A stretch of 64,000 bases of DNA from assembly GCF_963675165.1 (NCBI RefSeq), contig NC_087379.1:3845442-3909441 (forward strand). Direction: 5' to 3'. Shown here piece by piece: positions 61,251 through 64,000 of the stretch. The position numbers were made by a program, and so were the translations under genes. The notes under the pieces were generated by a model. That model made no database searches and was not told the origin of the DNA. It worked only from the letters and a program-made list of their open reading frames with translations. This DNA is from Halichondria panicea. Lineage: Eukaryota > Porifera > Demospongiae > Suberitida > Halichondriidae. The stretch's first letter is position 1. Each line of letters begins with the position of its first letter.

Positions 61251-64000
61251 TTACGCTACTGTTACACCAGTACTTGCACTTGCAGAGCTTCCATCAATGG
61301 ACATGGCCTGACACTGATACTCACCAGAGTTTTCAACATTCGCAGCCAAAATAACTATAGCTGACCTCCTCTCTGAAACCAATATTGCAACAACATTGGG
61401 TGCAGCAGCACTTTCTAACAAAGGCTCCCCTTGTATCTGCATGGGGCATAATAATAATTATACCTTAAGGTGACATATTTTCATAGGTAGATTTGTTTGC
61501 GTTTTCACTGTTTAGCTAGTATTAAATTCTGCTAAAATCCTGATGAAGTTGTGTTATTCATAGCATTTCTAATTACTCGCAAGTGGTTTAACGAGTTTAT
61601 TGATTATCTGCGAGTACACATTTTTGCGATTTTACTCTCATTCGCAGAAATAGCAGAAATTAATACTCGCGAAAATATGTCACCTTAAGGAAAGAGCTCG
61701 CTTATTATACACGTTACCAAGAGTTCATTAGGAAGAGTACGAAAAGAGTACGCAACTCCAATAGACTGACACAAAAGGCATTCCTCCATACCACATCACA
61801 GATACTAGCTGTTGTAATCGCAACTAGCAGGAAAGGCAATGAATAAAATCATCACTCATTGCAAATTTGATTTCACAGTTTATACAACAGCATGTGGTAG
61901 GTTAGAAGAAACACCTACTAGGTTTTAAGTGGAGTTGCGTACTCTTCCTAATGAACTCTTGACGTTACCTGTATTAGTAAGCCATTGAATGACCATATGA
62001 AACTCCTTGTATATCTGTTTGCATCACAAAAGACTGATTGATTGGATCCAACCCCGACGAAAATATTTTCCATAGGGCTGAGAAACACTTCATATTCAGC
62101 TTCTGTAAAGAGATCGAGTGATCTACTGTGAGTTACAACTTTGATTAGGAACTCACCCCGTGCCTTGATAGTAACATAAGCAGATCTTTGGGTTATCTCG
62201 TCTCCAGCTTGCCCTGTGCAAACGTACCTTCCACTATCATCGTCAGAAATGTTTGGTATTAGCAGTCTAATATCAGATGAGGACTGAAGAACCTAAAACC
62301 AAACAATAAATAATCTGTACCTGCATGTTAATAATTATTATGTGTACCTCAGCTTGTTGTGGTAGCTTTAAATTATCGGCGCGTCTCCATTGGAATATTG
62401 CACTGGGAAAATCACTGGAATACCTACAAACTATTTCCACAGATGAATTTAGTGCAACCTCAAAAAAATCCTGTTCAATGTCCACCCTGACAGCAGGGTC
62501 TATAGTTAAAAATAAGACATACATTTTATTAATAATTATTATAATTATATAACACGTACCAACAATGTCAACATAAGACGTGTCTCTGTTAATAACTCCA
62601 CGATCTGTATCGTTCACTGTACAGGTATAAGCCCCTCTGTTTAGGTTATTTGTTTCCATTATAGACAGAATAGAAACTGTCACCGAGTCCATGACAAAAG
62701 TATTCAAAGGTAGTGGGCCATCATTAAAAGTCCACCTGAACAAACAAAATCTTAATCAGATTTCCCAAATGAAAATTCAACAACGTACTCAATAATAGCA
62801 GGGTTCTCGGCAGAGCAAATAAGGTCATTGTTACTGCCTCTGGGAAATTTTGCTTCTAGAGGTGTCAATTTGAGCATCAAGTCTTGCGTGGGATCTATAT
62901 AATTATTTAGATAGAAATGACAACAACGTGTAGCCCAGAAAACTCACCATAAAACTCTATTTTCACATTGGTTACAGCACTATACCTCTCGCTAGGAGTT
63001 TGTGCCAGGCAAGTGTACACACCAGCATTTCCCTCTAGTCCATCCACTACTGTGAGTACAGAGCTAAAAGCAGAGATTTCAGTTACAGCAGCATTAGCTG
63101 GTAGATCAGCCCCATTGAAAGTCCAGTGAATTGTAGCAGAGCAATTGACTGTACAGTACAAAGTGAGTTCAAGACCTGGAGATATACTTGTAGCACCGTG
63201 TTCAATTTGGATGCGCAGCGGACTCTCTCCAGGCAAAGCAGGTGCTACAGAGTAAGAAACCAGTCTGCAGACAGCATGTATAAAATTAATGCGTAACATA
63301 CCAACAACACTTTGGCAAGTTATGTTCCTTGTGGCTGGAGCCTCACATTTAATCCCGCCTGCAGTACACATGCACCTCAAACATTTTTCCATCTGTGCTC
63401 TAGTCTCAATTACTTTGTTTAACACAAATGCATTAGTAAATGCTTCAGCAACACTTCCACCTAGGGGCAAATATTATAGTAATCAATGGTTAGTAAATTA
63501 AAAGTCGTATCTTCCAAAATCTTCACGTGACATTCATAAATGCACTTACCCTGTCGCAACTGCCCAATATCCCAAACTGCTCCACTGAGCTCCAAGGCAA
63601 GGTCAGTGTAATCAGTGTTGGTGCTTCCATGAGCACTGTCTGGTATTGGTGATCCTACTCCAGTAATTACTCTAAAGAGAGACCGAGCTGAAGGATCGTA
63701 GATAAATACATTTGCTTTACTGTCAATCCCTAGTCCTCTGTATTCGTTGCCAGAAAATTCTTGATTTACAACAGCGTTTAGAACAATGCCTTCATTTCGC
63801 ATTGCTCTTAGGAGACTGCTTCGTGTAATGTTGGCATTAAGGACATCTCTATCCTCATCAGTAATTAGAATAAATAGCCTGGCACCATCTCGAAAGTGGT
63901 ACGAGTCAATAGCAACTTGCAATGCACTGTAACCATCCTCTTGTCTGCCTCCGACCGATAGATTCATTGTGAATTCCGAAATGTTGTCTGCTGTTACAAA
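61251..64000 (-). CDS. vWA and Ig-domain protein, 3' part
   Basis: Open to the right edge, so the 5' part is missing. Exons: 64000-63550, 63460-63302, 63244-62948, 62894-62789, 62735-62560, 62499-62348, 62292-62157, 62102-61969, 61436-61251, stop TAA. The first exon shows the end of a von Willebrand A-type domain (DGYSALQVAIDSYHFRDGAR, LFILITDEDRDV). A short Cys-rich module follows (CLRCMCTAGGIKC). Then four Ig-like domains, each with the usual Cys...Trp...(D/N)xGxYxC pattern: LYCTVNCSATIHWTF...NAGVYTC; LICSAEN...WTFNDG...RGAYTC; IVCRYSS...FQWRR...SGRYVC; SVFCDAN...FIWSFNG...SGEYQC. The chain ends VTVA without a membrane segment in this last exon, so this form would be secreted unless other 3' exons exist. 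A role in adhesion or recognition is likely by family only. Confidence 0.88.
61463..61690. mobile_element. 228-bp MITE with perfect 20-bp inverted ends
   Basis: CCTTAAGGTGACATATTTTC at the left and its exact reverse complement at 61671-61690. The target duplication is not clear. It occupies the 3' half of the last intron of the vWA/Ig gene. Confidence 0.85.
61718..61961. mobile_element. 244-bp MITE, 7-bp target duplication at a splice site
   Basis: Ends CAAGAGTTCATTAGGAAGAG and reverse complement. Exact 7-bp flanks ACGTTAC at 61711-61717 and 61962-61968. On the minus strand the right-hand copy reads GTAACGT and supplies the GT of the intron's 5' splice site. Confidence 0.9.

Follow-up and report, generated by a model that had tools for sequence, protein, structure and literature searches.

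The host gene and its last intron

The window, a stretch of 64,000 nucleotides from the genome of Halichondria panicea, carries on its minus strand a vWA/Ig gene, in which the vWA match of the first vWA-like exon falls below the Pfam cut-off, the last 398 residues are recognized as Ig domains by Pfam (Ig_3, 4.1e-28) and LDLR-A-like repeats are found upstream by eye. With 10 introns placed by hand, the spliced gene is one open frame of 1,089 codons followed by a single terminal stop. The last of these introns splits the last Ig domain and contains two MITEs, which we refer to as MITE A and MITE B. The parts of the gene that matter here are as follows.

61251..61436, minus strand: downstream exon, second part of the last Ig domain and stop codon
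61437..61968, minus strand: last intron of the vWA/Ig gene, 532 bases, phase 0, within the last Ig domain; splicing restores the open frame
61969..62102, minus strand: upstream exon, first part of the last Ig domain
62156-62103, minus strand: 54-base intron, part of the gene model
62293..62347, minus strand: 55-base phase-0 intron of the preceding Ig domain, similar but not identical in position, too short for a MITE

The modelled splice sites of the 532-base intron are CAG/GTAACGT for the donor and CATGCAG/ATACAA for the acceptor (the slash marks the splice junction), and splicing is predicted to join donor 61968 to acceptor 61437. The nine other modelled introns, with lengths of 56, 56, 89, 57, 53, 53, 60, 55 and 54 bases, are all too short to hold MITE A or MITE B, and a further upstream intron, which is outside these nine, has 161 bases.

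Two MITEs and a target duplication at the donor

The content of the 532-base intron can be divided as follows, with no strand assigned to the MITEs.

61437..61462, minus strand: acceptor side of the putative old intron, ends CATGCAG
61463..61690: MITE A, 228 bases, ends CCTTAAGGTGACATATTTTC, 20-base perfect inverted ends
61691..61717, minus strand: donor side of the putative old intron, between MITE A and MITE B, includes one target copy
61711..61717, minus strand: target copy 2, GTAACGT, a second donor-like site, after MITE B's TTG
61718..61961: MITE B, 244 bases, ends CAAGAGTTCATTAGGAAGAGTACG, 27-base inverted ends, 96% complementary
61962..61968, minus strand: target copy 1, GTAACGT, follows the exon's CAG and is the modelled donor of the intron

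An earlier, sequence-only reading had described a 532-base intron with a 228-base and a 244-base MITE and about 60 bases of other sequence. These coordinates are confirmed here, the inverted ends of both elements were measured, and 60 of the 532 bases were counted as non-MITE. MITE B is flanked on both sides by ACGTTAC, a 7-base target duplication whose two copies are GTAACGT on the minus strand, and the donor GT (61968-61967) opens one of them, exactly as had been claimed. The same reading had offered the other copy as a second donor, which holds for its presence at 61711-61717, whereas its use is less likely: splicing from it would retain 251 extra bases whose seventh codon is a stop, and it is preceded by TTG, not by CAG. 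Target copy 2 would be a poor donor.

Both elements belong to repeat families in the genome assembly searched (131 Mb, 39 contigs). MITE A was scored at 40 places and MITE B at 40 candidates, window copies included in both cases, and a 24-base end of MITE B was found at 144 forward and 144 reverse places with at most two mismatches, while the control gave 0. Tc1/mariner-type MITEs use TA targets. Similarly, among the 15 end pairs found at 20 loci of the MITE A family, TA stands outside CCTTAAGG on both sides in eight, which carry TACC and GGTA (six of 13 after pairs with repeated flanks were dropped), whereas the copy in this intron has TA on one side only, at 61461-61462, and AA at 61691-61692. 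The target of MITE A is most likely of the TA type, although a TTAA reading is possible, and MITE A itself is probably a Tc1/mariner-like MITE.

The rebuilt empty site

The empty site was rebuilt from the window copy, rather than observed in another genome, by removing the MITEs and the duplicated target. Without MITE B and one GTAACGT, 281 bases remain; when MITE A is also removed, the remainder is 51 bases for a TA target, 53 for no duplication and 61 for a TTAA target. All three remainders start with GTAACG and end with CATGCAG, so that each has its own donor and acceptor, and their sizes fit those of the other modelled introns (53-60 bases, with one of 89). None can be read as exon: the 51-base remainder has an in-frame stop at codon 10, the 53-base remainder shifts the frame, and the 61-base remainder both shifts it and has a stop at codon 11. 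Because what is left is a complete small intron that is unreadable as exon, the MITEs would have entered an intron that already existed, which is the main argument of this analysis and favors one of the two options of the earlier reading, that a MITE had landed on an existing donor. On this evidence the intron grew through invasion by the MITEs and was probably not created by them.

The other option was that the insertion had taken part in making the intron. In its fullest form, MITE B would have landed in an exon and made the intron at once, with its target copy supplying the donor and the neighborhood the acceptor, in the manner of Introners. Introners with the donor located in the target duplication are indeed known from the excerpts of PMC9860276, and targets of the MITE B family often start with GT. 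However, the acceptor lies 274 bases past the second target copy, beyond MITE A, and the sequence in between cannot be read as exon. Nor does MITE B offer an acceptor of its own near its end, for on the gene strand its final 38 bases are free of AG, the nearest one starting 40 bases from the end; and in a crude screen of 36 distinct sites no other copy was shown to terminate an exon similarly, one further case (L059) being doubtful. The position of the acceptor and the missing AG speak directly against a part of MITE B in making the intron, and we consider such an origin very improbable.

An origin from MITE A, with MITE B arriving later and the short flanks being exon that decayed afterwards, deserves still less credence. 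MITE A ends with TTAAGG on the gene strand and thus has an AG at its end, but with this AG as acceptor the second codon in the frame would be the stop TAA (GTA TAA), and the 51-61 flanking bases are of the usual intron size of the gene and possess a donor and an acceptor themselves.

The invasion of an existing intron does not require that intron to be ancient, since in our own reading of the splice model an intron at this position is absent from four sibling Ig domains of the vWA/Ig gene. In the preceding Ig domain, the 55-base intron is about five codons further from the conserved W than the intron of the last Ig domain. Such a comparison among Ig domains is suggestive only and no proof of intron history. 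A search with the last 398 residues found no paralogue good enough for comparing introns (best foreign match E 0.0095), and a search with the last Ig domain (123 residues, about 15 of them translated from the intron 62156-62103) also gave none that was comparable. A second allele was not found in the assembly, where the upstream exon 61969..62102 matches a single place. The rebuilt empty site does not date the intron, the age of which is inferred here.

Target preference of the MITE B family

The scan for the MITE B family covered 85 loci, of which 30 lacked an end pair and 55 gave one. A 7-base duplication, with six or seven of the seven bases alike, flanks 42 of the 55 end pairs and yields 36 distinct sites. 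In the 35 sites other than that in the window, GT is found at one end of the target, on either strand, in 19, compared with 12% of the 7-mers in the window (binomial p 2e-9), and the symmetrised target consensus of the family is GTATTAC, i.e., RTANTAY. By a target matrix built from the first 32 of the other sites, GTAACGT is in the top 1.8% of the 7-mers in the window. Within the rebuilt intron, the donor site receives 12% of the insertion weight if positions are weighted as targets, versus 2% (1 in 45) if they are treated uniformly.

It may also be that the history was the same and the overlap of donor and target was pure chance, with no target choice. The uniform odds within the rebuilt intron are already 1 in 45, and five 7-mers in or beside it, four inside and one in the exon, outscore GTAACGT as targets. 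Against pure chance stand the preference of the family for RTANTAY and the high rank of GTAACGT among the 7-mers, and we regard this explanation as unlikely, if less so than either of the origins from a MITE discussed above. We prefer target choice, according to which MITE B would have landed at the donor because its target consensus resembles a donor. This does not make the family a donor-seeker in general, since the target matrix favors donors, taken together, no more than mildly: the mean target weight of the ten donors in the vWA/Ig gene is 2.3, versus 1.0 for the background, and about 1.4 without this donor.

Based on these results, we propose that the last Ig domain was already divided by an ordinary intron of about 51 bases (range 51-61, according to the reading of MITE A's target), that MITE A, a probable Tc1/mariner-like element, was inserted into this intron, and that MITE B, a probable P-superfamily element cut and pasted by a P-type transposase encoded elsewhere in the genome, was inserted seven bases into it. 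Such a transposase would pick and duplicate 7-base GTANTAC-like targets, which share GTA with the donor. The duplication would have left CAG/GTAACGT intact at the exon edge, and for this reason the insertion of MITE B could be tolerated. While the order of the insertions into the intron is inferred, we hold this overall history, an old intron invaded by MITE A and MITE B with the donor rebuilt by duplication, to be correct with a probability of about 90%.

The RNA of the 532-base intron is predicted to fold with -180.2 kcal/mol (z -11.9), which none of 100 shuffles equalled; it folds far better than the shuffles because each MITE closes on itself. As GTAACGT contains the palindrome ACGT, the two target copies add four pairs to the MITE hairpin in the fold model, up to the donor: the ACGU of both copies pair together and the GUA of the donor stays open. 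The predicted fold has no weight in the verdict on the origin of the intron.

MITE B and the P superfamily

In the P superfamily, the inverted ends typically begin with CA and end with TG. The ends of MITE B, CAAGAG...CTCTTG, follow this rule and are the same in nearly all pairs of the family (one, L030, starts with CTAGAG), and CA...TG ends are also found on a P-type element of the same genome, L108. The 7-base duplication and GTATTAC consensus of the MITE B family agree in turn with a P-superfamily target, as excerpts of PMC4168063 give 7-base duplications with the consensus GTANTAC for Galileo, a P-superfamily transposon of Drosophila, and GTATTAC in D. willistoni. On target and end type, MITE B is a probable P-superfamily (Galileo-like) MITE.

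P-type transposases are present in the genome, where the domain PF21789 was matched by 35 of the 50 scored candidates. L108:552-5173 (C16) is a 4.6-kb P-type transposase element that encodes PF21787 (1.8e-27) and PF21789, has inverted ends CATAGATGAAGG...CCTTCATCTATG and is flanked by a duplicated 7-base GTTTTAC, in sequence a Galileo-like target. It also carries a frame of 342 residues on the opposite strand. L108 is the only one with inverted ends and a duplication among seven P-type transposase places (eight loci; three of the places were covered over 3 kb only), and none of these seven is enclosed by a MITE B end pair; single matches to a MITE B end, with six mismatches in 20 bases, occur in the transposase loci L106 and L109. 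The ends of L108 and MITE B share CA and GGAAGAG, a likeness that is not significant, as 1,036 of 5,000 shuffles reach the same score. Four long pieces beside seemingly unpaired MITE B ends were considered as autonomous partners and rejected: one of them, L096, proved to be paired, and no transposase was recognized by eye in the four pieces among frames of at least 120 residues.

Recurrence at other donors

To what extent MITE B copies land on other donors was screened with a crude coding score that was trained on this vWA/Ig gene and is thus biased toward it. In this screen, only the present copy, among the 36 distinct sites, shows a clear exon running into a target that starts with GT; the number of ends in the genome (144 forward, 144 reverse) suggests that there are more copies than the sites screened. 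Two further candidates were set aside. At L059 (200-420 and 714-760), a relative of MITE B with the target GTATCAG lies inside a 67-codon open frame, possibly as an insertion into coding sequence; as a second donor case it is doubtful, for Pfam matches nothing in the 67-residue frame and coding sequence is not clear on the downstream side. At L037/L038, a relative of MITE B sits 13 bases after a donor and not on it; the gene of this donor (L037:1-420) shows, by eye, a membrane span and then a tyrosine-bearing tail.

Several copies have shared flanks and are probable segmental duplications, namely L037 and L038 (C1:9.94 and 9.99 Mb) and L079, L080 and L081 (C1). On the same contig, C1:1.27-2.48 Mb contains 15 copies of one MITE B-type element, 14 of them on one strand, that are 94-99% alike and share one truncation point (1-295 of 315), with some of them 30-180 kb apart; they probably form part of a larger unit that is repeated as an array.

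A broader claim would be that P-type MITEs, whose GTANTAC target overlaps with the GTA of the donor consensus, land repeatedly on donors and are tolerated since the duplication rebuilds the donor. If this were true, donor edges would be a safe harbor where introns are lengthened and donors doubled. We think it improbable, more so than a chance overlap at the present donor.

Comparison with known systems

Two MITEs in a small, probably pre-existing intron, one of them at the donor, are an ordinary event with a neat detail, and among the matches listed from the open-licence literature none dealt with this locus or with P-type MITEs at splice donors. The locus is a clean example of how the target preference of a transposon can explain a coincidence that resembles the birth of an intron. 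It also warns against calling an intron transposon-made just because its donor lies within a target duplication; the empty site must be read. In addition, the analysis yields for this animal genome a MITE family and a P-type element that both have targets of the Galileo type.

Galileo and its small non-autonomous copies resemble MITE B in their 7-base target duplication and GTANTAC-type consensus, according to excerpts of PMC4168063, while Galileo is described as an element of Drosophila with long inverted ends and MITE B has ends of 27 bases. P elements and the zebrafish THAP9 elements differ from MITE B in that their duplications are of 8 bases in the part of PMC7776569 concerned with them.

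Introners, as presented in excerpts of Gozashti et al. 2022 (PMC9860276), are, like MITE B, non-autonomous DNA elements that have inverted ends and are flanked by target duplications. They insert into exons, where the element either brings its splice sites along or obtains them from the target duplication or the neighboring exon, and in some the donor comes from the duplication. They create a new intron in an exon, whereas the intron studied here keeps its own remainder and its own acceptor. The empty site of an Introner would be continuous coding sequence; the rebuilt site here is a 51-61-base intron with a stop or a frameshift. Splice sites at the edges of the element or target on both sides would likewise mark an Introner; here this is so for the donor, and the acceptor is 274 bases away. 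A family-wide habit of forming introns, as Introners have, was not found for MITE B at the 36 distinct sites of the crude screen. Another parallel is with carrot, in which MITEs lengthen existing introns and give rise to intron length polymorphism, according to an excerpt of PMC5422474. Existing introns are lengthened by MITEs in both cases, and the sponge intron differs from those of carrot described there in that it contains two families at once and that a target copy of one of them is the donor.
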